64,000 nucleotides of DNA, from assembly GCA_017510725.1 (NCBI GenBank), contig JAFWMD010000049.1, forward strand, positions 18,478 through 82,477, read 5' to 3'. Source of the stretch: Mogibacterium sp. GTDB taxonomy: Bacteria; Bacillota; Clostridia; Peptostreptococcales; Anaerovoracaceae. The notes beneath the pieces are model-generated. The model did not search any database. It saw only the letters and a program-made list of their open reading frames with translations, and had not been told where the DNA came from. Below, piece by piece: positions 47,954 through 63,494 of the stretch (the first letter of the stretch is position 1; each line of letters opens with the position of its first letter). Made by a program: the position numbers and the translations under genes.

Positions 47954-49693
47954 CTACTCGTCCCACTCGCAGATATAGCCAAAATACTGAGTGCTGTTAT
48001 ATTCAGGCTTACCCTCATATCCGATGGCTATGCCGTCCATGTCTATATCGTTCCACTTCATGTAATCGCTGCCGCTGTTGGTGGTCTGTATCTCAAGGCA
48101 CATCTCCTGTCCGGTATATCCGGCAGCATCCGTATTATTGTTAGGCTTTCCTTTTTCCCAGTTTTCGTAGCCCCAGTTGTCACTAGGTCCCGGTATCAGT
48201 TCACCGTCAATCCATTTCCAGCTGCCGTCTTCAGCGGTTCCGCCCAGCCAGTAATGATACCTCTTTTCTCCGGATGAACGGATGAGGTCCTCTATGAAGC
48301 TTTGCTCTGAAACATCTGCTATTGTTGCAAGATGTCCGCCGTTACTCTCGCAAAGATCTCTGGCCTGATCCCAGCGCATCGGTTCGTCGAACACCTGATA
48401 ATGATGCCCGTTAAATTCCGTAGCATCGGCGAGTACCGCAGGATTCGCACCTGTGCCGTCAGGTTCGCCTTCCGCCTCAGATGAACTTCCGCCCTTATCG
48501 CCGAACAGCATTACCGCAGCGATTGCAAGAGCTGCAACGACAAGAATGGCTGCAACTATTATGATCAGCCTGGAACTGCTCTTGCTCTCAGACTGCATGC
48601 TGCCCTGAGATGTTGGATCCGTGTCGATCTGCCCGTAAGGCTGCTGCATCGGAACGGTGTATTGGCCTGTATACTGTCTCATCGGATCCGGAGCTGCATA
48701 TTGTCCGGTAAACTGCCTCATCGGATCCGGAGCTGTTGCTGCATACGGCGCAAATGCCTGTGCCGCCTGGCTGTTGTAATTAGCCTGATAGCTCTCGAGG
48801 TCTCTCCTCATCTCCTCGGCAGTCTGATATCTCATTCCCGGATCCGCTGCACATGCCTTCTGTATTATGTATGCCAGCATAGGGCTTGCGTCTCTTGGAG
48901 CAGGAAAAGGTTCTCCCCTGAAGCGCCTCAGTCTTGCTTCTTCTTCGTCATTGTGTGTCACCCTGGCAGGCGGAGGAGGAAGAAACGGTCCGCGGTTTCC
49001 GTTCAGAAGGGAATACAGCACGATGCCGAGCGAATAGATGTCCACCGTTGCACCATAGTGCTCTCCCCTGAATACCTCAGGCGCCATGTATTTATATGTA
49101 CCCTTCTTCGACATGCCGCCCGTCGTCTTCTCCATCGTCCTTGCGATGCCGAAGTCTCCAAGCTTGAAGTCTCCGTTGTCAGATATGAAAATGTTCTGCG
49201 GCTTGATGTCTCTGTGGATTATGTTCTTTTTATGGCATGTCTCAAGCGCCTTGCACATGTCGACACCCAGCTTCACGACTTCTTCCTCATTGAGCCTCCT
49301 CTCAACCATGCGGTCGAGAAGCGGTGTGAGCAGCTCCATGCGGATAAGAATGTCGTAACCTATTCCATCATCATGAGGGATGATCTGATGGTCCTCGTAG
49401 CTGACGATGTTGCTGTTGCCCTTGAGCTGGGCCATGATCTCATTCTCATTGATGATCTCTCTGAGAATGCCTTCATAGTACTCTGAGACAGACGCGAGGT
49501 CAGTGCCTTCCGACATGCGGCTCTTGACGTCGTCATCGTCCTGAGGCACTGTAATGATCTTCAGAGCCGACCTGTATGTCGTTCCGAATTCCTCTCTTGT
49601 TATTTCAAACACCTTGCCGAAGCTGCCCTTTCCGAGCAGTCTTCCCAGATACCATGATCCGAAGATCGGTTCGTATTTTCTGTATTCGTCCAT
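47954..49693 (-). CDS. Transmembrane Ser/Thr protein kinase with a C-type-lectin-like ectodomain (kinase 1)
   Basis: 579 residues. Kinase domain residues 15-300: GKGSFG loop (21-26), Lys45 in SALKII, HRDIKPQN with Asp162, GDFG with Asp180, activation loop threonines before APE (204-206). The linker carries two PMRQ(F/Y)TGQY repeats. One helix (about 375-397) leads to an external domain from 427: WDQARDLCESNGGHLATI, YWLGG, WKWIDGE, GKPNN, MKWND and YICEW, with Cys448, Cys532 and Cys575, the C-type lectin pattern. Kinase and ectodomain together suggest a sensor of envelope glycans; the ligand is unknown. AAAGGATC precedes the ATG. Confidence 0.9.
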   Translation of the reverse strand: MDEYRKYEPIFGSWYLGRLLGKGSFGKVFEITREEFGTTYRSALKIITVPQDDDDVKSRMSEGTDLASVSEYYEGILREIINENEIMAQLKGNSNIVSYEDHQIIPHDDGIGYDILIRMELLTPLLDRMVERRLNEEEVVKLGVDMCKALETCHKKNIIHRDIKPQNIFISDNGDFKLGDFGIARTMEKTTGGMSKKGTYKYMAPEVFRGEHYGATVDIYSLGIVLYSLLNGNRGPFLPPPPARVTHNDEEEARLRRFRGEPFPAPRDASPMLAYIIQKACAADPGMRYQTAEEMRRDLESYQANYNSQAAQAFAPYAATAPDPMRQFTGQYAAPDPMRQYTGQYTVPMQQPYGQIDTDPTSQGSMQSESKSSSRLIIIVAAILVVAALAIAAVMLFGDKGGSSSEAEGEPDGTGANPAVLADATEFNGHHYQVFDEPMRWDQARDLCESNGGHLATIADVSEQSFIEDLIRSSGEKRYHYWLGGTAEDGSWKWIDGELIPGPSDNWGYENWEKGKPNNNTDAAGYTGQEMCLEIQTTNSGSDYMKWNDIDMDGIAIGYEGKPEYNSTQYFGYICEWDE

Positions 49694-49717
49694 TTGTTGA
49701 TCCTTTAGCGGGCGGTT

Positions 49718-50497
49718 CTACTGAACTATCTTACATATTATCGCAGATACATTGTCTCTTGCCTGTCCCTCTACTACCCTTTTAAGCAGCCTTGCTACAA
49801 GATATGATGCACTGTCTTCTATATTATTGGCTATTATATCCCTGATCTCATCGTCGCTCAGTTCGCCTGTCAGTCCGTCGCTGCACAGCAGCAGAATATC
49901 TCCCTTCCGGACCTCAATATCCGATACAGTCGCTTCAGGCTCGATATCGTCTTCAGTTACCATTCCGAGATACTGCGTGATTTCCCCTGCAAACCTGCTT
50001 TTATTCCTGTCGGATTCTTTCAGCAGACCGCTGTCGATCATGGTTTGCGTGATGCTGTGATCCTTTGATATCTGCCTAAGTTCTCCCTCATGGAACAGGT
50101 AAACCCTGCTGTCTCCCACATTGAAAACAACAGCATGCCCTTCAAAAACGATTGCTGCCGCTGCTGTAGTGCCCATGTTGTGAGCTTTCTTCCGAATCGA
50201 CTCCTGTATTATAGACCGGTTAGCTGCAGATATATACATTCCGATATCTCCTACCAGGCCGTTGTCTTCCATAGCCCTGAGTCCGATTGCAGCCATGATC
50301 GATGCCTGTTCGCCGCAGGCTTCGCCTCCCAGTCCGTCAAAAACCGCGTATGTATAAGGTCCGCTCTCACGCTTGCTGTGAATGATGACATTATCCTGCT
50401 CCAGATCGTTTCTGTACGATCCATCCACATAGATATTGTCTTCGTTATGTCCCCTCACATTTCCTTTATGTGTTGCTCCACATGCCTCTGTTTTCAT
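49718..50497 (-). CDS. PP2C-type Ser/Thr protein phosphatase
   Basis: 259 residues. The PPM family motifs are complete: GNVRGHNEDN, AVFDGLGGE (DGxGG), NMGTTAAAAIV, VFNVGDSRVYL, CSDGLTGELSD and ARDNVSAI, which supply the metal-binding aspartates. It removes phosphate from Ser/Thr and is the natural opponent of the five kinases around it. No membrane helix, so it acts on the cytoplasmic side. It sits between the repeat protein and kinase 1 with gaps of only 17 and 24 bases. Confidence 0.95.
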   Translation of the reverse strand: MKTEACGATHKGNVRGHNEDNIYVDGSYRNDLEQDNVIIHSKRESGPYTYAVFDGLGGEACGEQASIMAAIGLRAMEDNGLVGDIGMYISAANRSIIQESIRKKAHNMGTTAAAAIVFEGHAVVFNVGDSRVYLFHEGELRQISKDHSITQTMIDSGLLKESDRNKSRFAGEITQYLGMVTEDDIEPEATVSDIEVRKGDILLLCSDGLTGELSDDEIRDIIANNIEDSASYLVARLLKRVVEGQARDNVSAIICKIVQ

Positions 50498-50514
50498 TTT
50501 ACACCCTTTTTTCT

Positions 50515-51147
50515 TTATATACCGAGTATTTGCGCTTTCTTTCTCCTGAATTCATCCTCTGTAATGATGCCATCATCCAGAAGTTCCTTGAGCCTTCTCA
50601 GATGTTCAATATATGCCATATCATCCTTTGCGGGAGGAGCAGTATATGCAGGTGCAGGAGGTGCGGGCTCTTCCTTATAAATCGATCTGAAGTGGAAAGA
50701 AGGCGCTTCCTGCTCATCCAGTATGACGGTCTCGTCGTTTTCGAAGGCCCTGTCATCGACCAGCATCACCGTCTCATCGTTTTCAAAGGCTGCCACATCA
50801 TCGAGTATCACCGTCTCATCGTTTTCAAAGGCTGCCACATCATCGAGTATCACCGTCTCGTCATTTTCGAAAGCCGTGAAATCATCGAGCATCACCGTCT
50901 CGTCATTTTCGAAGGCTGTGAAATCATCGAGCATCACGGTCTCGTCATTTTCGAAGGCTGCCTTATCGTCGAGATCCATTGTCTCTTCATTCTCAAAGCC
51001 GTTTAAGTCAAGCTCCTTCACCATATTATCTTCCGGAGGCATGCTGTAAGCTTCCGGCCTTTCAGGTGGCATCTCCAGCTTTGTTCCGCACATGACGCAA
51101 AATCTATAGACGTCTTTATTGTCTTTACCGCATTTAGGACAAATCAT
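50515..51147 (-). CDS. Zinc-ribbon/SHOCT protein with seven 14-residue DET repeats
   Basis: 210 residues from the ATG at 51147, with GGAGG five bases upstream (a GTG at 51159 is in frame). N-terminal zinc ribbon CPKC...CVMC (Cys3, 6, 17, 20). Residues 51-147 are seven 14-residue units, mostly AFENDETVxLDDxx, so a threonine falls at 56, 70, 84, 98, 112, 126 and 140. C-terminal SHOCT helices: YIEHLRRLKELLDDGIITED, DEFRRKKAQIL. The acidic E-T-V-x-L setting is like a phospho-acceptor and FHA-binding site. Encoded between a kinase and the phosphatase, it is a good candidate substrate or scaffold (inference). Confidence 0.8.
   Translation of the reverse strand: MICPKCGKDNKDVYRFCVMCGTKLEMPPERPEAYSMPPEDNMVKELDLNGFENEETMDLDDKAAFENDETVMLDDFTAFENDETVMLDDFTAFENDETVILDDVAAFENDETVILDDVAAFENDETVMLVDDRAFENDETVILDEQEAPSFHFRSIYKEEPAPPAPAYTAPPAKDDMAYIEHLRRLKELLDDGIITEDEFRRKKAQILGI
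50707..50997 (-). repeat. Tandem 42-base repeats, about seven units
   Basis: The DNA behind the DET repeats: seven head-to-tail 42-base units. The middle copies are nearly identical at base level and the two outer ones are more worn. The exact multiple of three keeps the frame, so copy number could change by slippage or recombination without breaking the protein. Confidence 0.85.
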
Positions 51148-51186
51148 CTTTTCCTCCACGCATTTTCAGATATGAGTCGGTCCTGC

Positions 51187-53238
51187 CTATTGCATGTCCC
51201 ACTCACAGATATATCCGTAATATCTTGTTTCGTTATAGTCAGGAGCTCCGTGGAATCTTTCCCCCGCTTCACCGGAATCACCGATATCGGTCCATGTAAG
51301 ATACTCTTCCGGGCCCTGATCTCCCTTTGTTTTCTGTATTTCCATAAAGTCCTGGCCAACGGCTTCGTAATCTGCCTTGTTGTTTGGCTGGTTACCACAC
51401 CATTTCTGATATCCGCTCTGGCCTTTCATAGGAACTTTTTCGCCTGTCACCCACTTCCAGTTTCCTTCGGAAGCTGAGTCTGAGGCTCCAAGCCAGTAAT
51501 GGTATAAAGTGCCGCGGGACTCGATGAGATCTTCAATTACAGCTTCTTCATGTGCATCCAGCACTGTTGCCAGATGCCCGTTCTGTGCTTCACAGGCCTT
51601 CTTTGCCTGAGTCCAGAACATAGGCTCATCAACGACCTTATAGAAGTGGCCATTATTCTCTACTGCATCTGCGAGATAATCAGGCAGGTCTTCAAGCCCG
51701 GAAACACTGACTTCCGTTTCCTGACCGGTAATATCCATGCCAAGTTCAGCAGCGGCTGCCTCATCATACTCAGCGCGGATGACCACAATATCGCCATTTG
51801 ACAGTCCCTCGCTTACATCGGCTGTATATACAACACTGTCGATAAGAGCTCCGGCAAGGGCCCGTTTCTCTTTATCCTTAATATCTGCGAGAATGTCCAG
51901 TTCTTTATCTGTGTCTACTGTGATCGCCTCTGCGATCTTGCCATAGCCATCGTAACCGGCAACAGCAGGATTTGCCATCAATTCTGACAGATCTATCTGT
52001 TTTTTGCCGAAGCCTTTTAAAACAGCCAGCGCACTGATTACAGCAACAAGCAGAATTCCTGCTACTATCAGGATCAGCTTTGAGCTGCTGCTTTTCCGGG
52101 GCTGACTGCCCCTCGTATCCGCAGCAGGATTCCCCTGCCCATAAGGCTGCTGCATCGGAACGGTGTATTGGCCTGTATACTGCCTCATCGGATCCGGAGC
52201 CGCATATTGTCCCGTATACTGTCTGACCTGCTCCGGATTGGTATATTGTCCCGTATACTGCCTCATCGGGTCCGGAGCTGTCGCTGCATACGGCGCAAAT
52301 GCCTGTGCCGCCTGGCTGTTGTAATTAGCCTGATAGCTCTCGAGGTCTCTCCTCATCTCCTCAGCAGTCTGGTATCTCATCCCCGGATACGCCGCGCTTG
52401 CCTTCTGTATGATGTATGCCAGCATAGGGCTTGCATCTCTTGGAGCAGGAAATGGTTCTCCCCTGAAGCGCCTCATTCTTGCCGCTTCTTCATCATTAGG
52501 AGTCACCCTCGCAGGCGGAGGAGGAAGAAACGGTCCGCGGTTTCCGTTCAGAAGGGAATACAGCACGATGCCGAGCGAATAGATGTCCACCGTTGAATCG
52601 TAGTGCTCTCCCCTGAACACCTCAGGCGCCATGTATTTATATGTACCCTTCTTCGACATTCCGCCCGTCGTCTTCTCCATCGTCCTCGCGATGCCGAAGT
52701 CTCCAAGCTTGAAGTCTCCGTTGTCCGAGATGAAGATATTCTGCGGCTTGATGTCTCTGTGGATTATGTTCTTTTTATGGCATGTCTCAAGTGCCTTGCA
52801 CATGTCGATGCCCAGCTTTACGACTTCTCCTTCATCCAGTCTCCTCTCGACCATGCGGTCGAGGAGCGGCGTGAGCAGTTCCATGCGGATAAGGATGTCG
52901 TAGCCTATTCCGTCATCATGAGGGATGATCTGATGGTCCTCATAGCTCACGATGTTGCTGTTGCCCTTCAGCTGAGCCATGATCTCATTTTCATTGATGA
53001 TCTCCCTGAGTATGCCTTCGTAATACTGGGAAACGGAATGAATATCCGTACCTTCCGACATGCGGCTCTTGATATCGTCTTCGTCCTGAGGCACTGTAAT
53101 GATCTTCAGAGCCGACCTGTACGTCGTTCCGAATTCTTCTCTTGTTATTTCAAACACCTTGCCGAAGCTGCCTTTTCCGAGCAGTCTTCCCAGATACCAT
53201 GATCCGAAAATCGGTTCGTATTTTCTGTATTCGTCCAT
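51187..53238 (-). CDS. Transmembrane Ser/Thr protein kinase with C-type-lectin-like ectodomain (kinase 2)
   Basis: 683 residues. The kinase domain (1-305) is almost the same as kinase 1 at both protein and DNA level. The linker has three copies of the RQYTGQY motif. After one helix (about 390-411) comes a beta-rich domain (415-525, ANPAVAGYDGYGKIAEAI, GLSNGDIVVIRAEYDEAA) shared with kinase 3, then a lectin-like domain from 527 (WTQAKKACEAQNGHLATV, YWLGAS, WKWVTGE, QPNN, WTDIGD, YICEWD). All catalytic kinase residues are kept. It likely arose with kinase 1 by recent duplication, with ectodomain change. Confidence 0.9.
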   Translation of the reverse strand: MDEYRKYEPIFGSWYLGRLLGKGSFGKVFEITREEFGTTYRSALKIITVPQDEDDIKSRMSEGTDIHSVSQYYEGILREIINENEIMAQLKGNSNIVSYEDHQIIPHDDGIGYDILIRMELLTPLLDRMVERRLDEGEVVKLGIDMCKALETCHKKNIIHRDIKPQNIFISDNGDFKLGDFGIARTMEKTTGGMSKKGTYKYMAPEVFRGEHYDSTVDIYSLGIVLYSLLNGNRGPFLPPPPARVTPNDEEAARMRRFRGEPFPAPRDASPMLAYIIQKASAAYPGMRYQTAEEMRRDLESYQANYNSQAAQAFAPYAATAPDPMRQYTGQYTNPEQVRQYTGQYAAPDPMRQYTGQYTVPMQQPYGQGNPAADTRGSQPRKSSSSKLILIVAGILLVAVISALAVLKGFGKKQIDLSELMANPAVAGYDGYGKIAEAITVDTDKELDILADIKDKEKRALAGALIDSVVYTADVSEGLSNGDIVVIRAEYDEAAAAELGMDITGQETEVSVSGLEDLPDYLADAVENNGHFYKVVDEPMFWTQAKKACEAQNGHLATVLDAHEEAVIEDLIESRGTLYHYWLGASDSASEGNWKWVTGEKVPMKGQSGYQKWCGNQPNNKADYEAVGQDFMEIQKTKGDQGPEEYLTWTDIGDSGEAGERFHGAPDYNETRYYGYICEWDMQ

Positions 53239-53277
53239 GCTGCTTACTTTGCCTTGATCTTTTATACTGTGCTTTTA

Positions 53278-54219
53278 CTATCCTTTTGCGTCACTTGCAT
53301 CCACCGCTCCGGATCTCTCCTGTAAACCGTATTCCCTTTCAAGAGAAAGTGCAAGAGGTGTGTCGTTAGTGAAGTATGTATCCACACCAATTCGTATCGC
53401 TTCCCTGATGGATGACTCATAGTCGAGTGTCCATGCGCTGAACAGCTTGCCGTGCTCATGCGCCGCTTCACAGTTGCTCTCCGTCATGAGGCCTCTGTCG
53501 ATATCTACGGAAATGATATCCACATACGGCATTTCGAGGCTGTCATTAAATCCCGACTGGCTCTTGCATACATACAGCTTAGGCATGTCCGGGAATTTTT
53601 CTTCCAGTATGCTCAATACATCAGTCGACATTGACTGCACTATGATCACATCGCTGTAGTCATACTCATCAACCAGCTCCTCAAAGGCGTTTATGGTCGC
53701 CTGATCGGATGATTTCAGCTCTATCACATAGGTGATATCCTTTCCGTATTTGTCGAACACCTCGCTGAGACGGAGTATCTTACCCCCTGAGTGTGTCGTG
53801 AGCGATTCGATTTCTTCCGAGCTTGCTGAGGAATATGTCAGGCTGTTTCCTGTAAGCCTTCCTGCTGTCGGATCATGTGAAACAAACAGCACTCCATCCG
53901 AGGAAATCACCAGATCCTGCTCTATGTACTCCGAACCTGCCGCAATCGCGTCATCATAAGCCTCAAAGGAATGCTCATATGCACCTGCGGATCCGCGGTG
54001 AGAATAGACATGCGATGCTATCAGTTTGTCCTGTGCACTCCCGGCAGTCAGAGCGATAGTCTCTCCTGCCTGATTGTGGTTCAGTTCCTCTTCAAGCTCT
54101 GCCCGTGCTTTCTTCCCGTGATTCAGCATCTCTGCTCTGCGGAACACATATGCGCCGGAGGCTGCTATCAGGGCAAGCATTATTATTATTGCTGTAATCA
54201 GAAACCGTCTTTTCTTCAT
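53278..54219 (-). CDS. Membrane-anchored glycerophosphodiester phosphodiesterase
   Basis: 313 residues. One N-terminal helix (FLITAIIIMLALIAASGAYVF) and then a GDPD barrel: YSHRGSAGAYEHSFEAYDDAI with the catalytic HRG, YIEQDLVISSDG with the acidic metal ligands, FVSHDPTAGRLTG with the second His, and WTLDYESSIREAIRIGVDTYFTNDTPLA. It splits glycerophosphodiesters; facing outward, it could trim glycerol-phosphate polymers or lipid head groups and so match the CDP-glycerol pathway at 31-33 kb (inference). Between kinases 2 and 3. Confidence 0.9.
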   Translation of the reverse strand: MKKRRFLITAIIIMLALIAASGAYVFRRAEMLNHGKKARAELEEELNHNQAGETIALTAGSAQDKLIASHVYSHRGSAGAYEHSFEAYDDAIAAGSEYIEQDLVISSDGVLFVSHDPTAGRLTGNSLTYSSASSEEIESLTTHSGGKILRLSEVFDKYGKDITYVIELKSSDQATINAFEELVDEYDYSDVIIVQSMSTDVLSILEEKFPDMPKLYVCKSQSGFNDSLEMPYVDIISVDIDRGLMTESNCEAAHEHGKLFSAWTLDYESSIREAIRIGVDTYFTNDTPLALSLEREYGLQERSGAVDASDAKG

Positions 54220-54249
54220 GTTCGGTATTATTATTCTTTTCCTTGGCCT

Positions 54250-56217
54250 TTATTCCAGGCCGTCCCATTCACATATATACCCGGAATAGTCCGGTGATTT
54301 GTAATACGGATGGCTTTCATAGCCTACTGACAGGCCTGAATTTGACATGTCCCACCACTTTCCGTATCTGCCGGTATCTGCCTTTGATACGCAGCAGAGC
54401 TGCAAGTAATTCTGATCGCCGTCGGAGCTGCTGTCCTTGTTATTAGGCTGATCCTTACGCCAGTTGGCATAGCCCCACGGTTCTCCGGTGATCCACGTGA
54501 AAGTGCCTTCATGACCTTCGTCCGTGCCGCCCAGCCAGAAGTTGTACTTAGTGCCGTAGTCTTCTATCAGGGAAACTATGAATTTCTGTTCATCAGCGCT
54601 TGTTATCGTAACAAGATGACCGTTCATCTGCTCGCATGCAGACTTGGCTTCAGTCCACAGTATGGACTCATTCACCAGTTTGTAGTAATGACCATTGAAC
54701 TCGATTGCATCCCTCAGGTATTGCGGGAACTCCTTGAGCCCGCTCACTTCAAAGCTGGTCTCCGTACCGCTTACCACGATGTCTGCAGATTCCGCCAGGT
54801 CCGCATCATATGCCGCCTTTATAGTCACAGTGTCTCCATTGCTCAGAGCTTCGGATGGCACGGCGGTAAATGTGATTTTGTTTATAAGGCTCTCCGCCCT
54901 GGCTCTCTTTTCGTCGTTCTTTATGCCCGCAAGGCATTCCATTTTTTTGCTGTCGTCAACGGTAAGAGTCCCTGCGATGACACCCTCGCCATCGTATCCG
55001 CTGACAGCAGGATCCGCCAGCAGATCGCCCAGGTTTAACTCTACCGGCCCTGCACTCATGCGTGTAACGAGGAAAATGCCCACAGCAGACAGGGCAATGG
55101 CAACAGCCGCAATTACCGCGATCAGACCCTTATTTGATTTCTTTTTCTTCAGAGCTGCGTTGATCTGCGAAGCCGCATTTACCGGTGAGGCTGCATTGAT
55201 CTGTGCAGCAGGCATGCTTCCCGTGTATGGCCTCATGCCCTGATCATATACAGGCATGCCCGCCGGATATGGTGCAAACGCCGGAGCTGCCTGCATGTTG
55301 TAGTTCGCCTGATAGTTCTCAAGATCCCTGCGCATCTGCTCAGCAGTCTGATATCTCATTCTCGGATCAGCCGCGCTTGCCTTCTGTATTATGTATGCCA
55401 GCATAGGCCCGGCATCTCTCGGAGGAGGTAATGGTTCTCCTCTGAAACGCCTCATTCTCGCCGTTTCCTCATCATTAGGAGTCACCCTCGCGGGCGGAGC
55501 CGGCAGAAACGGTCCGCGGTTCCCGTTCAGAAGAGAATACAGCACGATTCCGAGCGAATAGATGTCTACAGTCGAGTCATAATGCTCTCCCCTGAACACC
55601 TCAGGCGCCATATATTTATATGTACCCTTCTTCGACATCCCGCCCGTCGTCTTCTCCATCGTTCTCGCAATGCCGAAGTCTCCAAGCTTGAAGTCCCCGT
55701 TGTCCGAGATGAAGATATTCTGCGGCTTGATATCCCTGTGGATTATGTTCTTTCTGTGGCATGTCTCAAGAGCCTTGCACATGTCGATGCCCAGCTTAAC
55801 GACTTCTCTCTCATCCAGTCTCCTCTCAACCATGCGGTCGAGGAGCGGCGTGAGGAGTTCCATGCGGATAAGGATGTCGTAGCCGATTCCGTCATCGTGC
55901 GGGATGATCTGATGGTCCTCATAGCTCACTATGTTGCTGTTGCCCTTCAGCTGAGCCATGATCTCATTCTCATTGACGATTTCCCGGAGGATGCCTTCAT
56001 AGTACGCGGATACAGAAGCGAGATCCGAGCCTTCTGACATGCGGCTTTTGATGTCGTTTTCATCCTGCGGCACTGTAATGATTTTCAGAGCCGACCTGTA
56101 AGTCGTTCCGAATTCTTCTCTTGTTATTTCAAATACCTTGCCGAAACTGCCTTTTCCGAGCAGTCTTCCGAGATACCACGAGCCGAAGACCGGCTCATAT
56201 TTTCTGTATTCATCCAT
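54250..56217 (-). CDS. Transmembrane Ser/Thr protein kinase with C-type-lectin-like ectodomain (kinase 3)
   Basis: 655 residues. Complete kinase domain (HRDIKPQN, GDFGIAR, APEVFRG), then a linker with one RPYTGSM motif and short Ala/Asn repeats (AQINAASPVNAASQINAA). Helix GLIAVIAAVAIALSAVGIFLV leads to a beta-rich domain like that of kinase 2 (ADPAVSGYDGEGVIAGTL, ALSNGDTVTIKAAYDADL) and a lectin-like domain from about 506 (WTEAKSACEQMNGHLVTI, FWLGG, FTWITGEPWGYANW, QPNN, YICEWD). The kinase part is more diverged from kinases 1 and 2 than they are from each other. Confidence 0.9.
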   Translation of the reverse strand: MDEYRKYEPVFGSWYLGRLLGKGSFGKVFEITREEFGTTYRSALKIITVPQDENDIKSRMSEGSDLASVSAYYEGILREIVNENEIMAQLKGNSNIVSYEDHQIIPHDDGIGYDILIRMELLTPLLDRMVERRLDEREVVKLGIDMCKALETCHRKNIIHRDIKPQNIFISDNGDFKLGDFGIARTMEKTTGGMSKKGTYKYMAPEVFRGEHYDSTVDIYSLGIVLYSLLNGNRGPFLPAPPARVTPNDEETARMRRFRGEPLPPPRDAGPMLAYIIQKASAADPRMRYQTAEQMRRDLENYQANYNMQAAPAFAPYPAGMPVYDQGMRPYTGSMPAAQINAASPVNAASQINAALKKKKSNKGLIAVIAAVAIALSAVGIFLVTRMSAGPVELNLGDLLADPAVSGYDGEGVIAGTLTVDDSKKMECLAGIKNDEKRARAESLINKITFTAVPSEALSNGDTVTIKAAYDADLAESADIVVSGTETSFEVSGLKEFPQYLRDAIEFNGHYYKLVNESILWTEAKSACEQMNGHLVTITSADEQKFIVSLIEDYGTKYNFWLGGTDEGHEGTFTWITGEPWGYANWRKDQPNNKDSSSDGDQNYLQLCCVSKADTGRYGKWWDMSNSGLSVGYESHPYYKSPDYSGYICEWDGLE

Positions 56218-56248
56218 AATTCTTTTTCTGTCAGGCTTTTATCAGCGG

Positions 56249-56983
56249 TCAGTTCAGATACTCCTCAAGAGTAAGCCCGTTCTCTGTCATTTCCTTTGCC
56301 GCCTCAATACCTACATAACGTATATGCCATGGCTCATACGGATAGCCGCTGCTGTTCCCCTCCGGATATCTCAGTATGAATCCGTAGTCAGGCAGTTTTT
56401 CATGTATCCTTGCCCATATCTCAGGATACTGGACCAGATCCTCATTCTCATAGACAGTGTTGCCGTCAACTATCAGGTAAAGGTCCAGTGCCAGTCCGGT
56501 ATGATGTTCTGACGTTCCCGGCTCTGAAGCATACGTATGAGCATAAGCCTCTCCGTACTTTTCAGTGAAATCGTCGATGATCTTCTGCTGGTCCGCAACA
56601 CTCCTGTAGGCGGAATCCAGCTCTACATATATGCCCTCCTGCGCTAAATTGTCCTTGAGTTTCAGATACGCATCATAAGCTGTTTCCTCTGTCCACACTT
56701 CATCGCCTACGGAGTTCACAGTGGATACCAGACTGATTTTTTCTTCCCAGTCATCGGGAAGCATGTGGTTTTTGTCCACAAGTATGAGATAGTCTATATC
56801 CGGTGCATCCTGCTCTTCTTCTGTCTGCGGAGCAGGAGCTTCGGGCTCAGCGGCCATCTCCTCTGCCTCCTCTTCCCGGCTGTGTCTCATATTTGCCTGC
56901 CGGACGATAAAGACCGTACCGGCCGCTATCAGGAGTACTGTTATAACTATAAATACTGTCAGCTTTCTTGTTTTGGCTGTCAT
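56249..56983 (-). CDS. Membrane-anchored D-alanyl-D-alanine carboxypeptidase (VanY type)
   Basis: 244 residues: N-terminal helix (LTVFIVITVLLIAAGTVFIV), Glu/Pro-rich linker, then peptidase M15B. Zinc and catalytic motifs are clear: ELDSAYRSVADQQKII, GTSEHHTGLALDLYL (HxxxxxxD) and YEPWHIRYVG (WH). It removes the last D-alanine from peptidoglycan stems. Located between kinases 3 and 4, it is a plausible output or partner of the island. Confidence 0.92.
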   Translation of the reverse strand: MTAKTRKLTVFIVITVLLIAAGTVFIVRQANMRHSREEEAEEMAAEPEAPAPQTEEEQDAPDIDYLILVDKNHMLPDDWEEKISLVSTVNSVGDEVWTEETAYDAYLKLKDNLAQEGIYVELDSAYRSVADQQKIIDDFTEKYGEAYAHTYASEPGTSEHHTGLALDLYLIVDGNTVYENEDLVQYPEIWARIHEKLPDYGFILRYPEGNSSGYPYEPWHIRYVGIEAAKEMTENGLTLEEYLN

Positions 56984-56998
56984 TCAGCTGCCTCGCAA

Positions 56999-58951
56999 CT
57001 ATTTTTCAAGTTCGTACAGAGCATCGTTAAAGCATTTTGCCGCCGGAGTTTTGCTCTTTACGTATTTAAACACCAGGAAGTCATCGCTGTATCCGGCGCA
57101 CATCAGCAGTTTACTGAAATCTTCTCTGTGCACTCCGAGGGCTTTGATTCCTTCCTCAGAACTTACTGTATTTTCATTTATCTTATAGACATCGCTTGCT
57201 TTTGTTTCATCCGTCGCATGATCGTAACGGTTCGTTATCGTCTGCACTGTAGAAATGTATCCCTCCGGATCCATGCTGTATTTTTTGCTGCAGTAGTAAT
57301 CGTGGTCATCGCCCTCCCGGGTCGCAATATAGAACGAGCCGGACTTACCCGTATAGATGATATAGCATGCGCCTGCCGCCACATTATAATCCGACAGCAT
57401 TTCTCCATAATCGCACTCCACTGCCTGTCCGTCCTTGCATGTGTATATATGCAGATATGCTCTCCCGTCATCATCATGGAAGGACATGAATAGCAGTTCC
57501 GGGGTTCCGTCATTGTTGAGGTCTGCGAGTGCGACACATTTGTTTACGGCATCATCTACCACATCTCCTTGTTCATACTCACCGTAATCGTAATACATGT
57601 CTCCATCTACAGTCTTCTGCCAGAAGTACTGCTTTATGGTCGTCTCGTTTTCTCTAAGCACTTCTGCGTACGCCTGCTTATAATCGTTTTGCTGCTCGTC
57701 AGCAATTCCGGCTTCAGTCTCTGCTGCAGGCTGCTCAGGTACTACGGTAACAGCTTTCGGTTCATTGCCTCTCTTTATCAGGATAACAGCTGCAGCGGTA
57801 ATAACAGCCACAGCAAGACATATCACAGCAATGATTACCGCAGTATTGCCGGATGATTTCCGGGCCTGCTGAGGCATAGGCTGTGGCATTGGTTGCGGCA
57901 TCGGCTGCGGCGTTGGTCTCGCGGCAGGCTGCGGCACTGCTCTCATTGGTTCGACCGGTATGTTTCCCGTATAAGCTCTGCCTGAAGGTCTGCCGTAATA
58001 CATCAGATAATTTTCAAGATCGCAGCGCATCTCCTCTGCAGTCCGATATCTGTATGCAGGATGTGCCGCGCATGCTTTCTGTATGATGCCTGCCAGCATT
58101 GGGCCGGCATCCCTTGGCGCCGGTATAGGCTCTCCCCTGAAGCGTCTCATCATCGCTTCTTCCTCATCATGAGGTGTCACCCTTGCAGGCGGAGCCGGAA
58201 GAAACGGTCCGCGGTTCCCGTTCAGCAGAGAGTACAGCACGATACCGAGCGAGTATATGTCAACAGTTGAGTCGTAATTTTCTCCACGGAACACCTCAGG
58301 AGCCATGTACTTGTAGGTACCCTTCTTCGACATACCTCCTGCCGTTTTTTCTATAGTGCGTGCTATGCCGAAATCTCCCAGTTTATAGTCACCATATGGT
58401 GAAATGAAAATATTCTGAGGCTTTATATCCCTGTGGATGATGTTCCTGCTGTGGCAGACTTCCAGGGCTTTGCAGATGTCGATACCCAGTCTGACAACTT
58501 CCTGTTCATCGAGCCTTTTCTGTACCATGCGGTCGAGAAGCGGCGTGAGCAGCTCCATGCGGATAAGGATGTCATATCCTATACCGTCATCATGAGGGAT
58601 GATCTGGTGATCCTCATAGCTCACGATGTTGCTGTTGCCTCTGAACTGCGACATTATTTCGTTCTCATTGACGATCTGTTTCAGTATCTCCTCATAGTAT
58701 TCGGAGATCGTATTTATGTCCGTGCCTTCGGACATGCGGCTTTTTACATCGTCATCATCCTGAGGCACTGTAATGATTTTCAGAGCCGACCTGTAAGTCG
58801 TTCCGAATTCTTCTCTTGTTATTTCAAATACCTTGCCGAAGCTTCCTCTTCCGATCAGTCTCTTAAGATACCATGACCCGAAGATGGGCTCGTATTTTCT
58901 GTACTCGTCCATATAAGCTCTTTTCTTCTTTGGTTTTTCTGCATCCGACAT
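56999..58951 (-). CDS. Transmembrane Ser/Thr protein kinase with FG-GAP/EF-hand-like ectodomain (kinase 4)
   Basis: 650 residues. It has 13 extra residues (MSDAEKPKKKRAY) before the MDEYRKYEP start used by the four other kinases; the internal ATG at 58912 is equally possible. The kinase domain is complete (GRGSFG, HRDIKPQN, GDFG). The linker has SGRAYTGN and a run of MPQP repeats, with a helix about 370-393. The ectodomain differs from kinases 1-3: VALADLNNDGTPELLFMSFHDD is a Ca-binding FG-GAP/VCBS-like loop (DxNxDGxxE). Sensing of calcium or a wall ligand is inferred. Confidence 0.88.
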   Translation of the reverse strand: MSDAEKPKKKRAYMDEYRKYEPIFGSWYLKRLIGRGSFGKVFEITREEFGTTYRSALKIITVPQDDDDVKSRMSEGTDINTISEYYEEILKQIVNENEIMSQFRGNSNIVSYEDHQIIPHDDGIGYDILIRMELLTPLLDRMVQKRLDEQEVVRLGIDICKALEVCHSRNIIHRDIKPQNIFISPYGDYKLGDFGIARTIEKTAGGMSKKGTYKYMAPEVFRGENYDSTVDIYSLGIVLYSLLNGNRGPFLPAPPARVTPHDEEEAMMRRFRGEPIPAPRDAGPMLAGIIQKACAAHPAYRYRTAEEMRCDLENYLMYYGRPSGRAYTGNIPVEPMRAVPQPAARPTPQPMPQPMPQPMPQQARKSSGNTAVIIAVICLAVAVITAAAVILIKRGNEPKAVTVVPEQPAAETEAGIADEQQNDYKQAYAEVLRENETTIKQYFWQKTVDGDMYYDYGEYEQGDVVDDAVNKCVALADLNNDGTPELLFMSFHDDDGRAYLHIYTCKDGQAVECDYGEMLSDYNVAAGACYIIYTGKSGSFYIATREGDDHDYYCSKKYSMDPEGYISTVQTITNRYDHATDETKASDVYKINENTVSSEEGIKALGVHREDFSKLLMCAGYSDDFLVFKYVKSKTPAAKCFNDALYELEK

Positions 58952-58956
58952 TCCGG

Positions 58957-60435
58957 CTACTCTACAAGCTTTTCTCCTTCAAAGTAGGTGCAGATCCAGC
59001 CGTCCGTGATTCTCATCCACTCACCGGACATGTCGAGGCACTGTACTTTAGCGCCTTTCTTAAGGCTTGCGTAATCTCCGGATTTTCCTTCTGCCTGAGC
59101 TTTGTATTCATCCGACAGATCATCTCTCTTGATCTGATTAGCGCGTTTTTTCAGCCGTTCAGGTGTTGACCTCACGGCAACTCCCTCAGGAGATATGACC
59201 GTATATGTATGGTTTTTAATAAACCCATACTCGTTAATAGGCTCTTCAATGACCGGAGTGTCCTCAGCAACAGCCGGTTCATCCGTCACTGTTTCGACAA
59301 CTTCTTCAGAGCCATCACCTGTCTCTGCCGTTCCGGTGTTACCGTCTCCCCGTCCGGTTATGATGACCGCTGCCGCAGCTATTGCGATAACGGCAATAGT
59401 GAGGCATATCGATACGACGATGATTGCTGATTTGTTTCCGCTCTGTTTTGGAGCAGGCTGAACAGGAGAAGAAGGTGTACGTGGCGGAATAATGACAGGC
59501 TCTGTCGGGGCTTCTCTGTAGTACGAAAGATAGCTCTCGAGATCGCGTCTCATCCGATCTGCAGTCTGGTATCTCATCCTCGGATCTGCTGCGCTGGCCT
59601 TCTGTATGATCTGTGCCAGCATCAGGCTCGCGTCTCTCGGAGGAGGAAAAGCTTCTCCTCTGAATCTCCTCATCCTCGCTTCCTCTTCATCATTGTGGGT
59701 CACCCTTGCCGGCGGCGCCGGAAGGAACGGTCCGCGGTTTCCGTTCAGCAGAGAATACAGCACGATACCGAGTGAGTAGATGTCTACAGTTGAGTCGTAG
59801 TTTTCTCCCCGGAACACTTCAGGCGCCATGTACTTGTAGGTACCTTTTTTTGACATGCCGCCTGTTGTCTTTTCAATGGTGCGCGCGATGCCGAAATCTC
59901 CGAGTTTGAAATCTCCGTTATCCGAGATGAATATATTCTGAGGCTTTATGTCCCTGTGGATGATGTTCTTTCTGTGGCATACTTCGAGGGCTTTGCATAT
60001 GTCTATGCCCAGCTTCACCACTTCTTCCTGCGTAAGCGGTCTTTCAAGCATGCGGTCGAGAAGAGGCGTGAGCAGCTCCATGCGGATAAGGATGTCATAG
60101 CCTATACCGTCATCATGCGGGATTATCTGATGATCCTCATAGCTGACGATATTGCTGTTGCCCTTCAGCTGTGACATTATCTCATTTTCATTTATGATCT
60201 CTTTCAGTATGCCCTCATAGTATTCAGAGACCGACCTTATGTCTCTGCTTGCGGACATGCGGCTTTTTACGTCGTCATCATCCTGAGGAACTGTAATGAT
60301 TTTCAGAGCCGACCTGTATGTCGTTCCGAATTCTTCCCTTGTTATTTCATATACCTTACCGAAGCTTCCTTTTCCGATCAGTCTCTTAAGATACCATGAC
60401 CCGAAGATCGGCTCGTATTTTCTGTATTCATCCAT
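58957..60435 (-). CDS. Transmembrane Ser/Thr protein kinase with SH3-type ectodomain (kinase 5)
   Basis: 492 residues, the shortest of the five and the first transcribed. Kinase residues 15-300 complete (GKGSFG, HRDIKPQN, GDFGIAR, APEVF). Pro-rich linker without the YTG motif, helix 336-361, acidic spacer, and an external SH3-like domain (YTVISPEGVAVRSTPERL, YASLKKGAKVQCLDMSGEWMRI, GWICTYF). Bacterial SH3 domains commonly bind peptidoglycan, so it may sense the wall as PASTA kinases do. A weak TTGACA lies about 55 bases upstream with no well-spaced -10. Confidence 0.9.
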   Translation of the reverse strand: MDEYRKYEPIFGSWYLKRLIGKGSFGKVYEITREEFGTTYRSALKIITVPQDDDDVKSRMSASRDIRSVSEYYEGILKEIINENEIMSQLKGNSNIVSYEDHQIIPHDDGIGYDILIRMELLTPLLDRMLERPLTQEEVVKLGIDICKALEVCHRKNIIHRDIKPQNIFISDNGDFKLGDFGIARTIEKTTGGMSKKGTYKYMAPEVFRGENYDSTVDIYSLGIVLYSLLNGNRGPFLPAPPARVTHNDEEEARMRRFRGEAFPPPRDASLMLAQIIQKASAADPRMRYQTADRMRRDLESYLSYYREAPTEPVIIPPRTPSSPVQPAPKQSGNKSAIIVVSICLTIAVIAIAAAAVIITGRGDGNTGTAETGDGSEEVVETVTDEPAVAEDTPVIEEPINEYGFIKNHTYTVISPEGVAVRSTPERLKKRANQIKRDDLSDEYKAQAEGKSGDYASLKKGAKVQCLDMSGEWMRITDGWICTYFEGEKLVE

Positions 60436-60520: not shown

Positions 60521-61315
60521 TCAGGCATTCCGGTTACGCTGAACGCTCTGTTTTGAATAATACGTGATATATACGGTCCCTGCAGCTACGCATGCAAGCG
60601 ATATAACCTGGGAGACCGAAAGCAATCCGATGTACCCCCTGTATCCGTCGCCCCTGAAGAATTCCAGTACAAACCTTCCAGTCCCGTACAGAACTGCATA
60701 TTTGCTGAGCATCACATAGCCCGGCACTTTATGTTTTGAGTCTGCATAAAGGACAAAGAAAAGCGCAAACTCATATATTGATTCAATCAGCTGAACCGGG
60801 ACAAGAGGAACACTGTTAGGCGCAAATGCGGAATTGCTGTATATGACATGCAGCAAACCGTGTGTCTCCTTCCCGAAGCAGCATCCTGTAACATAGCAGC
60901 CTATTCTGCCAAAAGCATGTGCCAGAGGGAATGCCGGCAGTACAAGCTGGAGGGAGTGTGAAAATGATACGTCTGCTGATCTGCAGTAAAAATATATAGC
61001 CATCATGCAGCCCAGCAGTCCGCCGTAGAAAACAAATCCGCCAGCCAGATATGAATATCCTGCCTTTGCCAGTCCATACTCTCCGATATCTGCAATAACA
61101 TGTCTGCATTCGATCAGCAGATACAGGATTTTTGCTCCTGCTGCAGTGCCGGCAAGAGCGCATACCAGCTCAAGCTCAAGATGTCTGTCAAGGTCAATAT
61201 AGTACTCATTCCTTACACGTTTTTTCGTGTAAAAAACTGCAGCAATTATTCCAACTGCTGCAGCAAGACTATATGTCGGAATAGTTTTTCCCAATAGGCT
61301 GATCTGAGTAAACAT
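60521..61315 (-). CDS. lgt: Prolipoprotein diacylglyceryl transferase-like protein
   Basis: 264 residues, about seven helices. Lgt signatures are present: GGFVFYGGLLGCMMAIYFYC, LAHAFGRIGCYVTGCCFGKET (the HxxGRxGC core with Arg), VPVQLIESIYEFALFFVLY and LYGTGRFVLEFFRGD. Lgt transfers diacylglycerol to the lipobox cysteine of prolipoproteins; several lipoproteins in this window would need it. The N-terminus is somewhat diverged, so a specialised paralogue is possible. It follows a zinc-ribbon gene by 9 bases. Confidence 0.85.
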   Translation of the reverse strand: MFTQISLLGKTIPTYSLAAAVGIIAAVFYTKKRVRNEYYIDLDRHLELELVCALAGTAAGAKILYLLIECRHVIADIGEYGLAKAGYSYLAGGFVFYGGLLGCMMAIYFYCRSADVSFSHSLQLVLPAFPLAHAFGRIGCYVTGCCFGKETHGLLHVIYSNSAFAPNSVPLVPVQLIESIYEFALFFVLYADSKHKVPGYVMLSKYAVLYGTGRFVLEFFRGDGYRGYIGLLSVSQVISLACVAAGTVYITYYSKQSVQRNRNA

Positions 61316-61324
61316 CCTCGTCCT

Positions 61325-61786
61325 CTAATATAATGAAGCTCCCAGCATGCCTAAAGATCCGACGCACGCCACGCAGGCTACCAGTACTACCGCCCCGCCA
61401 ATCAGACCGATCAGTGAAAGCACAAACCCGGCTGTTCTCATTCCTCCTTCAAAGCCCTCACTTTTAGCTTTTCCGGCAAGGATAAGGCCTGCAATTCCGC
61501 ATCCGACGGAAACAATTGCTGAGTATCCGAAGAACCAGCAAACAACTGCGATTATTCCTAAAACAAGGCTTGCAGTGGCCTGGCCCTTACCCTTTTCAGG
61601 GTTGGCTCCTGCGCCGGCTGATGCTGATACCGGTGCAGCTATATGCGATGCAGACTGTGGAGGAGCATAGGCAGGAGTCTGTTTAGGCCCTGCATCAAGT
61701 TTAGTTCCACAATTTCCGCAGAACAGATCGTCTGCTTCATTCATCATTCCGCAATTCGGGCAGCGGATTCCATTCATCACTTCCAT
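61325..61786 (-). CDS. Zinc-ribbon membrane protein, DUF4190-like
   Basis: 153 residues. N-terminal ribbon CPNC...CGNC, a Pro/Ala linker, then two or three helices with the small-residue pattern of DUF4190 (KGKGQATASLVLGIIAVVCWFF, IAGLILAGKAKSEGFEGGMRTAG, GFVLSLIGLIGGAVVLVACV). AGGAAA lies before the ATG. Function is not known; such proteins recur beside bacterial Ser/Thr kinases. Confidence 0.72.
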   Translation of the reverse strand: MEVMNGIRCPNCGMMNEADDLFCGNCGTKLDAGPKQTPAYAPPQSASHIAAPVSASAGAGANPEKGKGQATASLVLGIIAVVCWFFGYSAIVSVGCGIAGLILAGKAKSEGFEGGMRTAGFVLSLIGLIGGAVVLVACVACVGSLGMLGASLY

Positions 61787-61813
61787 AATAATTTCCTCTC
61801 GTTTTCTGTTTTT

Positions 61814-62203
61814 CTACCGCAGCTGTGCCCCGCAATTCGGGCAGAAACGGTCATCTTTTTCCATCTGGGATAAGTTCGTTCCGCAGTAAGGACAAAACAG
61901 TAATTGTTCTTCTGTATCATTAAAGGCGCTTACAGTTACAGTTTCCGGTACCGGTCTTTCTGCTGTGTTTACCGGGCTGTCTGCAGGCCTTTCCGGCAGA
62001 TTAAGGGATTTTCCGGCCGGAGTGCCATAGTATCTGTCTGCAAGTCTTTCTTTTGGGGGCGGATTGTTTGCTTCCTTACTTCTTACATAGGCATTCCTGA
62101 CCGAGTCCCGTCCCTTGTCTGCTACAACATTGAGCAGGTATCTCACCACCACGACAGCACCACCAGCTGCCAAAAGGATCAATAAAGCTGTCGCATCATC
62201 CAT
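61814..62203 (-). CDS. Small membrane protein with C-terminal zinc ribbon
   Basis: 129 residues: an N-terminal helix (ATALLILLAAGGAVVVVRYLL), a polar linker, and CPYCGTNLSQ...CPNCGAQL at the end. The order is the reverse of the neighbour at 61325. Not assigned to a family; likely a cytoplasmic-facing adaptor. Confidence 0.6.
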   Translation of the reverse strand: MDDATALLILLAAGGAVVVVRYLLNVVADKGRDSVRNAYVRSKEANNPPPKERLADRYYGTPAGKSLNLPERPADSPVNTAERPVPETVTVSAFNDTEEQLLFCPYCGTNLSQMEKDDRFCPNCGAQLR

Positions 62204-62216
62204 GTTTTATGATCTC

Positions 62217-62696
62217 CTAAAAGCGTGTTTTCGTTTTAATTTCCATCATATGTGTTTCTACCATTGTTTCAGGGTCGAGTGAAAGGAGCATTTTTTCCGT
62301 CTGTGTCAGAAAAATATTCATGGTCATAAAATTCGGCACTCCATTTCTGCCTTTCCAATTAGTAAAGGATAAACTGTACAGATACTTTTCTTCAGATGTT
62401 CCCAGATATTGCAGAGCCGCATTCCATGAATGGCTTGATCTGAAAAAGATGATCTTTTTCCCATCAAAGTTGTAAGTAACTTCCACAGCATTGCCGGCAT
62501 AATTAACGTTCTTTGCTGCAGCTACTACAGCCTCATAAGGAGCATCAAGCTCAAATATCTGCTTATCCTCCCAGAAACTTTTATTTCTTTCTATTATCTT
62601 TCCTTCCTGGAGCAGCCCGGTTTTTTCTCTGTTTTTCAGATAATATGCCGTGCCTACAGCAGCCACACAAATGGCTATTATTATAAAGTTGTTCAT
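62217..62696 (-). CDS. Hypothetical protein with one N-terminal helix
   Basis: 159 residues, not recognised. The N-terminal helix (NFIIIAICVAAVGTAYYL) is followed by a mixed alpha/beta domain (QIFELDAPYEAVVAAAKNVNY, VEVTYNFDGKKIIFFRSSHSW) ending with MMEIKTKTRF. Gaps of 13 and 21 bases to its neighbours place it in the lgt operon. Confidence 0.55.
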   Translation of the reverse strand: MNNFIIIAICVAAVGTAYYLKNREKTGLLQEGKIIERNKSFWEDKQIFELDAPYEAVVAAAKNVNYAGNAVEVTYNFDGKKIIFFRSSHSWNAALQYLGTSEEKYLYSLSFTNWKGRNGVPNFMTMNIFLTQTEKMLLSLDPETMVETHMMEIKTKTRF

Positions 62697-62717
62697 ATAA
62701 GCGATCGCCTCCCATTA

Positions 62718-63473
62718 TCAGGCGTTTCTTCTGTTCAGCAGGTATGCTGCCAGCACGGTGATCAGAATACCGACTCCTGCGCATATGCATATTATGCCTG
62801 CAATAAAGCGCCTTTTGTCTTCAACAACTGCGCCTTCATTTCTCTGCAGGGATCCTGTTGTGTCGGGCTCCTGGACCGGAGTCAGTTTTGATTCGTCTTC
62901 GCTTTCCGTCTTTTTATCGGCAGCTGCAACAGTCTTTGTTTTCAGATAATCTCCGCTTACCCATCCTGAAGCACCTCCGGCATTTACATACATCCATGTC
63001 GTATCGGTTTTATAAGTATGATCATATGTTACCTCTGTATCCTTATTGAGGGTTTTGATGATCTTGAAACCGGTACCCGGACCGTATCTGAGGTTGAGTG
63101 CATCCGTAGTTGTCGCAGTGGTGCTCGCCACTTCTGTACCGACAGCAGGCGATACCATGTCAGCAGCAGACACTATGTCGCCGTTGTAGATGTACACAAA
63201 GTCCAGAAACTGGTCCGGCCCTGCATTCGGATCCGTTGTACCGCGTAAGATTTCATCAAAAGTGTCCCACACATAGAAGGCCTGACCTCCGGTCAGAGTA
63301 CCGGAAGATTTTCCGTTTTGATAGTCTTCATAGTCAATATAAAACGGCACACCTTCAATCTTAAGCACAGCGGTATATTCCGGCTCTGACGGAGCTCCCA
63401 TATCTGCGCAGACCGGGATACTGCTCATAATTATCAGTAAGCCCATTATCAATACAGACAATACTTTTTTCAT
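62718..63473 (-). CDS. Exported SH3-domain protein with C-terminal membrane anchor
   Basis: 251 residues from the ATG at 63473 (GGAGAG five bases upstream). Signal peptide (VLSVLIMGLLIIMSSIPVCA), an unassigned beta domain (AVLKIEGVPFYIDYEDYQNG), an SH3-type domain (DALNLRYGPGTGFKIIKTL, TWMYVNAGGASGWVSGDYL), a charged linker and a final helix (FIAGIICICAGVGILITVLAAYLL) with basic stop-transfer residues. This layout resembles a type I wall-associated membrane protein. Ligand probably peptidoglycan (inference). Confidence 0.7.
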   Translation of the reverse strand: MKKVLSVLIMGLLIIMSSIPVCADMGAPSEPEYTAVLKIEGVPFYIDYEDYQNGKSSGTLTGGQAFYVWDTFDEILRGTTDPNAGPDQFLDFVYIYNGDIVSAADMVSPAVGTEVASTTATTTDALNLRYGPGTGFKIIKTLNKDTEVTYDHTYKTDTTWMYVNAGGASGWVSGDYLKTKTVAAADKKTESEDESKLTPVQEPDTTGSLQRNEGAVVEDKRRFIAGIICICAGVGILITVLAAYLLNRRNA

Positions 63474-63494
63474 AACACTCTCCATATATGCTTT

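Follow-up and report, generated by a model that had tools for sequence, protein, structure and literature searches.

A block of five single-pass kinases forms part of an island of 13 kinases around a type VII secretion locus in an uncultured Mogibacterium

Introduction

Why would a bacterium keep, side by side, several serine/threonine kinases that are nearly constant inside the cell and differ outside it, and what might such a set control? The question is raised by a 64,000-nucleotide stretch of Mogibacterium sp. DNA, hereafter the window (GenBank assembly GCA_017510725.1, contig JAFWMD010000049.1; C25:18478-82477 in our labels), from an uncultured gut-type bacterium whose assembly is 2.4 Mb in size, 84.5% complete and 5.67% contaminated. 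A preliminary description, made from the letters of the window, had singled out five kinase genes (K1-K5) and read them as parallel envelope sensors. We found that these genes form one block within an island of 13 kinases grouped around a type VII secretion locus. On balance, we favour the reading that this island is a receptor-kinase repertoire that evolves by domain exchange and that probably controls type VII secretion by phosphorylating threonines, which FHA domains would then read. The neighbourhood described here bears on which signal triggers type VII secretion in Bacillota and how that signal crosses the membrane, for it unites candidate receptors (the lectins) with kinases, phosphatases, FHA readers and a candidate phospho-scaffold made of repeats.

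Five kinases with a near-constant inner half and differing ectodomains

The five kinase genes are real, all lie on the minus strand and match the Pfam Pkinase model (E 6.6e-41 to 2.4e-44):

K1, 47954..49693, minus strand: kinase, one transmembrane helix (376-394) and a C-type lectin domain (Pkinase 1e-43; Lectin_C 3.8e-12)
K2, 51187..53238, minus strand: kinase, transmembrane helix, unnamed linker domain and a C-type lectin domain (Pkinase 3.3e-41; Lectin_C 5.4e-12)
K3, 54250..56217, minus strand: kinase, transmembrane helix, unnamed linker domain and a C-type lectin domain (Pkinase 1.2e-41; Lectin_C 1.3e-14)
K4, 56999..58951, minus strand: kinase, transmembrane helix and an ectodomain with a DLNNDGTPELL motif (Pkinase 6.6e-41; FG-GAP_3 0.053, below cut-off)
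K5, 58957..60435, minus strand: kinase, transmembrane helix and a short ectodomain (Pkinase 2.4e-44)

As first described, the N-terminal kinase is nearly constant, with a domain identity of 92-95% within K1-K3 and 83-89% in pairs involving K4 or K5. A single membrane helix is predicted in each protein by a simple hydropathy scan, and the kinase is N-terminal to it. All 12 single-pass kinases of the contig (K1-K12) retain the catalytic Lys and the HRD, DFG and APE motifs. Tandem repeats of 39 bases at window positions 48660-48735 and 52166-52278 fall in the K1 and K2 linkers and encode repeated RQYTGQY-type units; RxYTG-type motifs were also seen by eye in K3, K4 and a kinase of a genus mate (G153).

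The ectodomains had been labelled C-type-lectin-like (K1-K3), FG-GAP-like (K4) and SH3-like (K5); the first label holds at the level of sequence, whereas the other two could not be confirmed. Lectin_C scores were 47.3 bits for K1, 46.8 for K2, 55.3 for K3 and 46.4 for a further kinase, K7, against a curated Pfam cut-off of 22.6 bits, and all four Lectin_C domains detected in the genome sit in kinases. A profile of 13 C-type-lectin-like domains (CTLDs; three from the window and ten from other loci) matched 248 distinct PDB sequences, and the 60 listed among them are all C-type-lectin-fold proteins by name. Two Cys columns are invariant across the 13 aligned CTLDs, from which a conserved disulphide pair is predicted. 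The calcium-dependent sugar site of C-type lectins consists of EPN or QPD plus WND; in the 13 CTLDs the P and W-x-D are invariant, the window copies carry KPN or QPN with WND, WTD or WWD, and complete EPN plus WND occurs in CTLDs of three other genomes (G049, G119 and G008).

The K4 ectodomain reached E 0.027-0.053 against FG-GAP models, below the Pfam cut-off, and had no match in a PDB search. That of K5 had no Pfam match up to E 1, and its best PDB match, an entry with NCK2, was not significant (E 0.48). It matches a protein of G201 (43% over 58 aa) whose own SH3_3 match is below cut-off (E 0.0042), and hhalign against the SH3 relatives of the window gave no support for K5 as SH3.

The island runs into a type VII secretion locus

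The kinase island outgrows the window, which ends at contig position 82,477, and its kinase genes continue to contig position 121 kb. There are 17 kinase genes in the genome (G000), 13 of them on contig C25, and 12 of these 13 are single-pass. Beyond the end of the window, K6 and K8 carry PASTA domains, K7 is the fourth lectin kinase, and K9-K12 have other ectodomains. The thirteenth, K13 (G000:C25:118743-121313, equal to L027:1244-3814), is an AAA-kinase fusion with eight predicted helices and deviating catalytic motifs (HSD and DFN). Its kinase domain is split by an insert that carries several acidic T-V motifs.

After the kinases come genes for an Rhs protein, a trypsin-FHA protein, four WXG100 proteins, YukD, a LytTR regulator and EssC, with small genes interspersed, and two further FHA proteins lie beyond EssC. 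EssC (contig 132136-137175, outside the window) scored 1081 bits against an NCBIfam cut-off of 778 bits. The four WXG100 proteins and YukD were above their Pfam cut-offs; in an NCBIfam scan of three WXG100 proteins one was over its cut-off and two were just below, and YukD was unmatched. The EssC ATPase, WXG100 proteins and YukD together (Pfam, NCBIfam) identify a type VII secretion locus. Of the T7SSb components, none of the NCBIfam names EssA, EssB and EsaA appeared among the type VII locus proteins scanned, the rest of the genome lying outside this search. Seven of the eight FHA domains detected in the genome are on C25, and the eighth is on an FtsW-type cell-cycle protein adjoining a penicillin-binding protein. 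The Rhs protein (1578 aa, G000:C25:121848-126584), located beside the WXG100 genes, is a candidate type VII substrate.

We further counted Pkinase matches in a sample of 148 genomes of the family (hand count): 124 had one or two, 20 had at least three and four had none. The present genome had 16 in this search, and the next highest had 5. At least three matches were found in 4 of 6 genomes with EssC over the cut-off versus 16 of 142 others (p 0.003; p 0.016 without the present genome). Pkinase matches numbered 8 in G158 (two being pieces of one frame) and 6 in G204, two genomes described below.

K1-like kinases and one form of EssC go together in genus mates

Relatives were compared in a set of 47 genomes of the genus. 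A kinase-profile search gave eight loci, of which those in RUG11951, RUG13623 and SIG269 were used most, that in SUG1236 (G151) in part, and L037-L039 for the kinase only. The first three are the same-genus genomes G158, G204 and G153, with identical contig places, and they also carry the labels G150, G148 and G149, respectively. A kinase was termed K1-like when profile A1 matched it at E 1e-160 or better, a threshold placed after the gap between 1e-161 and 1e-131 had been seen.

In G158, a 28-kb run on one strand holds FHA, EssC, LytTR, WXG100, a kinase, a Zn-ribbon/T-V-repeat/SHOCT protein and PP2C, and continues with GDPD, a lectin kinase, an SH3 protein and a second kinase, other genes being interspersed; no YukD relative was seen in it. 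Within 17 kb, G204 carries EssC (truncated where the contig stops), YukD, WXG100, a kinase with TPR repeats, PP2C and a K5-like kinase, also cut, that is 86% identical to K5. G153 has the EssC locus on one contig and a lectin kinase with PP2C and VanY on another. Across the genus set, K1-like kinases occur in 5 genomes, EssC in 8 and both in 4 (Fisher p 0.0018, or 0.0086 without the present genome; neither is corrected for ancestry). EssC of the three other genomes bearing both is 62-71% identical to that of the present genome, whereas in the four genomes without a K1-like kinase identity over two stretches is 46-47% and 38-39% (three genomes) or 36% and 29% (one). K1-like kinases therefore go with the close EssC form (p 2.8e-5, shared ancestry ignored).

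Kinases with TPR repeats near EssC were found in G204, G091 and G203. A second type VII form is seen in two of the four genomes without a K1-like kinase, G193 and G203 (L165, L166), where several FHA genes, LytTR and one kinase stand beside EssC; a K1-like kinase and a PP2C relative are absent within the 20 kb examined in these two genomes. This suggests that type VII loci commonly use a TPR kinase and that one form has gained the ectodomain kinases as an additional set. In G091 (L121:7477-9219), a kinase-like gene cut by the contig end has FHA in its C-terminal part; the lectin protein next to it is a distinct product with its own membrane anchor, so the pair resembles a receptor divided in two.

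Kinase-CTLD fusions, which the preliminary description had proposed to seek in related genomes, do occur there: among 11 family genomes with Lectin_C, 4 have a kinase fusion, the present genome included. Related kinases elsewhere carry Big_2 and Sel1 (Pfam) or DUF285-like and leucine-rich-repeat-like parts (by eye). A related kinase family of genus mates, mostly without EssC (L134-L140, L145, L146, L151, L152 and L156), has Ig-like outer domains in pairs (Pfam Big_2 in L135, the others by eye) and a tail that ends in an acidic aromatic motif.

Candidate phosphothreonine signalling

As reported at first, PP2C, VanY, GDPD and Zn-ribbon/DET-repeat/SHOCT genes are interspersed among the kinases (Pfam). 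Two of them bear directly on signalling:

PP2C-a phosphatase, 49718..50497, minus strand: PF00481 4e-14; best PDB matches include bacterial PstP
DET-repeat protein, 50515..51159, minus strand: Zn-ribbon, seven [DE]ETxxL-type sites and SHOCT (Pfam); candidate multi-site phosphothreonine scaffold

PP2C-a adjoins or lies near a K1-like kinase in 5 of 5 K1-like genomes, and in the four others its relatives (48-55% identity) are at most two genes away. The reading of the set as parallel receptors in the membrane, each with a conserved kinase on the cytoplasmic side and with PP2C phosphatases nearby, is well supported. The proposal that they feed one phosphatase-balanced output stands as to the PP2C neighbours, whereas the contig has three PP2C genes, two of them beyond the window, and a single output shared by all receptors can only be conjectured.

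The repeat of the DET protein is a 42-base tandem array of 5.9 copies (50714-50960), and its seven Thr sites have an acidic context and L at +3. FHA domains prefer phosphothreonine with a given residue at +3. G158 carries a similarly built protein, with four T-V/M-I-I units, next to PP2C. We then compared 35 proteins of the kinase/type VII block with 112 others of the contig by shuffling, two likely antisense frames and proteins below 100 aa being excluded. The motif [DE][DE]T[VILM] occurred 13 times in the block versus 4.7 in shuffled sequences (maximum 12), and its serine form 10 versus 6.4; the excess rests largely on one protein, since 7 of the 13 sites lie in the DET protein. The looser [DE]xT[VILM] occurred 51 times versus 30.0 (maximum 44), with no excess of the serine form (42 versus 40.7), and neither motif was enriched among the 112 other proteins. 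In 38 kinase linkers, a count that leaves aside K13, the cut kinase and others (including L147, L148, L154, L157, L160 and most of L084-L113), [DE]xT[VIL] occurred 15 times in 12 linkers versus 2.7 (maximum 8). T[VIL]x[MIL][FIL], a motif picked after looking, occurred 6 times in the linkers versus 0.1, with no serine form.

Proposed mechanism, and sensors of wall homeostasis as the alternative

In the mechanism we favour, an outer domain (lectin, PASTA or other) would meet a wall glycan, a surface polysaccharide or a neighbouring cell, and this contact would activate the inner kinase. The kinase would phosphorylate acidic T-V threonines in the DET scaffold, in FHA proteins and in some kinase linkers; FHA domains, perhaps that of EssC too, would dock on these phosphothreonines and set the assembly or activity of secretion, and PP2C enzymes would reset the phosphorylation state. 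We infer the coupling of lectin, kinase and secretion, as well as the ligands, the substrates, the output and the direction of the effect on secretion.

Several observations weigh against this mechanism. The canonical phosphothreonine-binding positions of FHA domains are GR, S and N; one FHA domain of the protein at 138345-139430 is canonical by eye, and none of the EssC FHA domains of four genomes keeps all of them (the present genome and G091 have GK, and G158 and G153 have a changed Ser). Because of this, EssC as a putative phosphothreonine reader is, as far as its residues tell, the weakest step of the proposal. None of the K1-K5 linkers contains the motif [DE]xT[VIL], the serine form of which is somewhat enriched too (10 versus 3.1 shuffled, maximum 9). 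The five kinases are 53-64 kb from EssC, with other genes intervening, and the association statistics disregard shared ancestry. Moreover, a lectin kinase with PP2C occurs without EssC in G160 (71% complete), more distant lectin kinases occur in G049, G119 and G008 with EssC not over the cut-off, and related kinases are present in seven genus genomes that lack EssC. G151, likewise without an EssC above the cut-off, has a more distant kinase in the vicinity of PP2C, Zn-ribbon and FHA genes, so the signalling set can exist without type VII secretion.

The last two observations also favour the alternative that the kinases are sensors of wall homeostasis, PknB/IreK-like monitors of peptidoglycan or teichoic acid that would act on VanY, GDPD and other wall genes, with the type VII genes as mere neighbours and both sets serving the envelope. 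Two enzymes of this kind lie between the kinases:

GDPD-family phosphodiesterase, 53278..54219, minus strand: PF03009 1.6e-22; N-terminal membrane anchor by eye
VanY-type carboxypeptidase, 56249..56983, minus strand: PF02557 6.7e-30; N-terminal membrane anchor by eye

Relatives of VanY (72% and 67%) are close to kinases in two genus mates, polysaccharide-type genes lie on both sides (some by Pfam, others by eye), and the outer parts of the EssC-free genus kinases are Big_2 in the one tested. The preliminary description had contrasted the five genes with wall-sensing kinases, which usually carry PASTA repeats; K1-K5 indeed lack PASTA (Pfam), yet the PASTA kinases K6 and K8 stand in the same island. 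However, in genus mates K1-like kinases stand in the same runs as EssC, they track one EssC form, and a kinase adjoining PP2C on another contig (C19) may serve housekeeping. We therefore regard wall homeostasis as a possible but subordinate explanation and retain the secretion-linked repertoire as the preferred one. A bolder form of it, in which recombination would place different lectin and other ectodomains on an unchanging kinase and all receptors feed one phosphothreonine/FHA switch arming a type VII weapon, seems doubtful to us; if true, the cell could recognise differing neighbours or surface glycans.

Kinase and lectin halves have conflicting histories

The kinase half and the lectin half of these proteins are of differing history. 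In the kinase tree, which omitted K13 and a 224-aa cut kinase of G148, K1-K3 group together, as do two G150 kinases despite unlike ectodomains, whereas in the CTLD tree K3 joins lectins of G149 and G150. Kinase data rejected the lectin grouping (approximately unbiased (AU) test, p 2.4e-4) and the pairing of two kinases with WDWD-type ectodomains (p 3e-5), and CTLD data rejected the grouping of K1, K2 and K3 (p 1.9e-6); the clades tested were named from the other protein half after that half had been seen. In 30-codon windows, K1 and K2 have a nucleotide identity of 79-98% as far as residue 360, after which it drops to 46-59%; K3 departs earlier, near residue 300. This conflict may reflect exchange of ectodomains or gene conversion homogenising the kinase half.

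A recent plain duplication, after which selection drove the lectin halves apart without any exchange, would fit the close spacing of K1-K3 and their kinase identity. We consider it very unlikely: among K1-K3, synonymous divergence (dS) has reached saturation in the lectin half, against values of 0.36-0.75 for the kinase half, so faster amino-acid change is insufficient, and the K3 lectin is nearer to lectins of two other species than to those of K1 and K2. Separately, in G201 (L159:2919-4509), a genome without EssC over the cut-off, two adjacent genes encode Zn-ribbon membrane proteins that bear, in place of a kinase, a K3-type lectin (63%) and a K5-type domain (42% over 59 aa).

That the contig was misbinned or chimeric, so that the island came from another organism, is highly improbable in our view: besides the incompleteness and contamination of the bin, this would fit the absence of a kinase-profile match at E 1e-40 in 34 of 47 genus genomes, and the purF-like gene used as a check is 46 kb from K1 and leaves room for a chimeric join, but six genus mates have a purF-like protein with 90-94% identity and seven more have one with 69-81% (none in 4 of 17), against at most 33% outside the genus, so that contamination appears unlikely by this gene, and the three named island-bearing relatives belong to the same genus. 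The purF-like protein (window 205-1635; name by eye) has no Pfam match at E 1e-10; it is 69-94% identical within the genus and 31% identical to a second copy in the same genome.

Comparison with known systems

Kinases, phosphatases (PPM) and FHA proteins have already been described in type VII clusters of subtypes T7SSc-j, according to the main text of PMC11217815, which also states that phosphothreonine sites are well kept in T7SSd and T7SSe EssC and raises control by phosphorylation. The present locus resembles T7SSe and T7SSj as portrayed there in its EssC with N-terminal FHA, WXG100, YukD, membrane kinase, PP2C/PPM, separate FHA proteins and Rhs candidate, and the TPR kinases beside EssC in relatives recall the subtypes as well. 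It differs in number and kind: each system of these subtypes is described with a single kinase, whose C-terminal part is helical or TPR (PMC11217815), whereas the island has 12 single-pass kinases with CTLD, PASTA or other ectodomains and FHA proteins in which DUF6382 was not found (all six FHA-bearing proteins; E ≤0.05, ≤1 for three and ≤0.01 for the FtsW-type one). The T7SSe hallmark TseJ (DUF6382 plus FHA) was therefore not seen; for T7SSj, which is marked by the TPR kinase TsjD with TsjI and TsjJ, TPR kinases are present in relatives and no DUF6382 FHA protein was found. Neither C-type lectins nor PASTA are mentioned in the main text of PMC11217815, and among the open PMC literature we found no paper on kinases with lectin-type ectodomains at type VII loci. 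The parts are known and the combination is new.

Cyanobacteria have fusions of Ser/Thr kinases and C-type lectins, described in passages of PMC7517822, that act as the variable proteins of diversity-generating retroelements (DGRs) and share the N-terminal kinase, the C-terminal C-type lectin fold and several lectin paralogues per genome. In the present proteins Pfam Lectin_C lies across a membrane helix, and since a reverse transcriptase was not detected (PF00078 unmatched in the 84.5% complete genome; template repeats were not sought), the idea that they are DGR variable proteins is unsupported. PknB/Stk1 PASTA kinases are similar in having the kinase inside, one transmembrane helix, the ectodomain outside and PP2C nearby; besides lacking PASTA, K1, K4 and K5 (the three scanned) are far below the NF033483 equivalog cut-off of 450 bits, at 166, 153.8 and 154.2 bits.

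The type VI PpkA/PppA/Fha pathway controls a secretion system by threonine phosphorylation. There too a membrane kinase, PP2C and an FHA protein set secretion, although the secretion machine is unrelated, and we know of no kinase repertoire in that pathway. Plant lectin receptor-like kinases have a lectin outside and a kinase inside and form a large family with varied ectodomains. Given a constant kinase half, a variable ectodomain and separate histories for the two, the likeness to a receptor kinase set drawn in the preliminary description is apt, as an analogy and without a claim of common descent. The type VI pathway is itself mentioned in the main text of PMC11217815. What the locus adds is a bacterial receptor-kinase design, constant inside and with an outside of separate history, that can be traced across close species.

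Accessory genes beyond the five kinases

Beyond K5, the window continues with a further block on the same strand:

Accessory block, 60521..63851, minus strand: Lgt-like (by eye), Zn-ribbon, small membrane proteins and an SH3 protein
SH3 protein, 62718-63485, within the accessory block: SH3_3 5.3e-10

The type VII runs of G204 and G158 contain relatives of this SH3 protein (36% and 42%).

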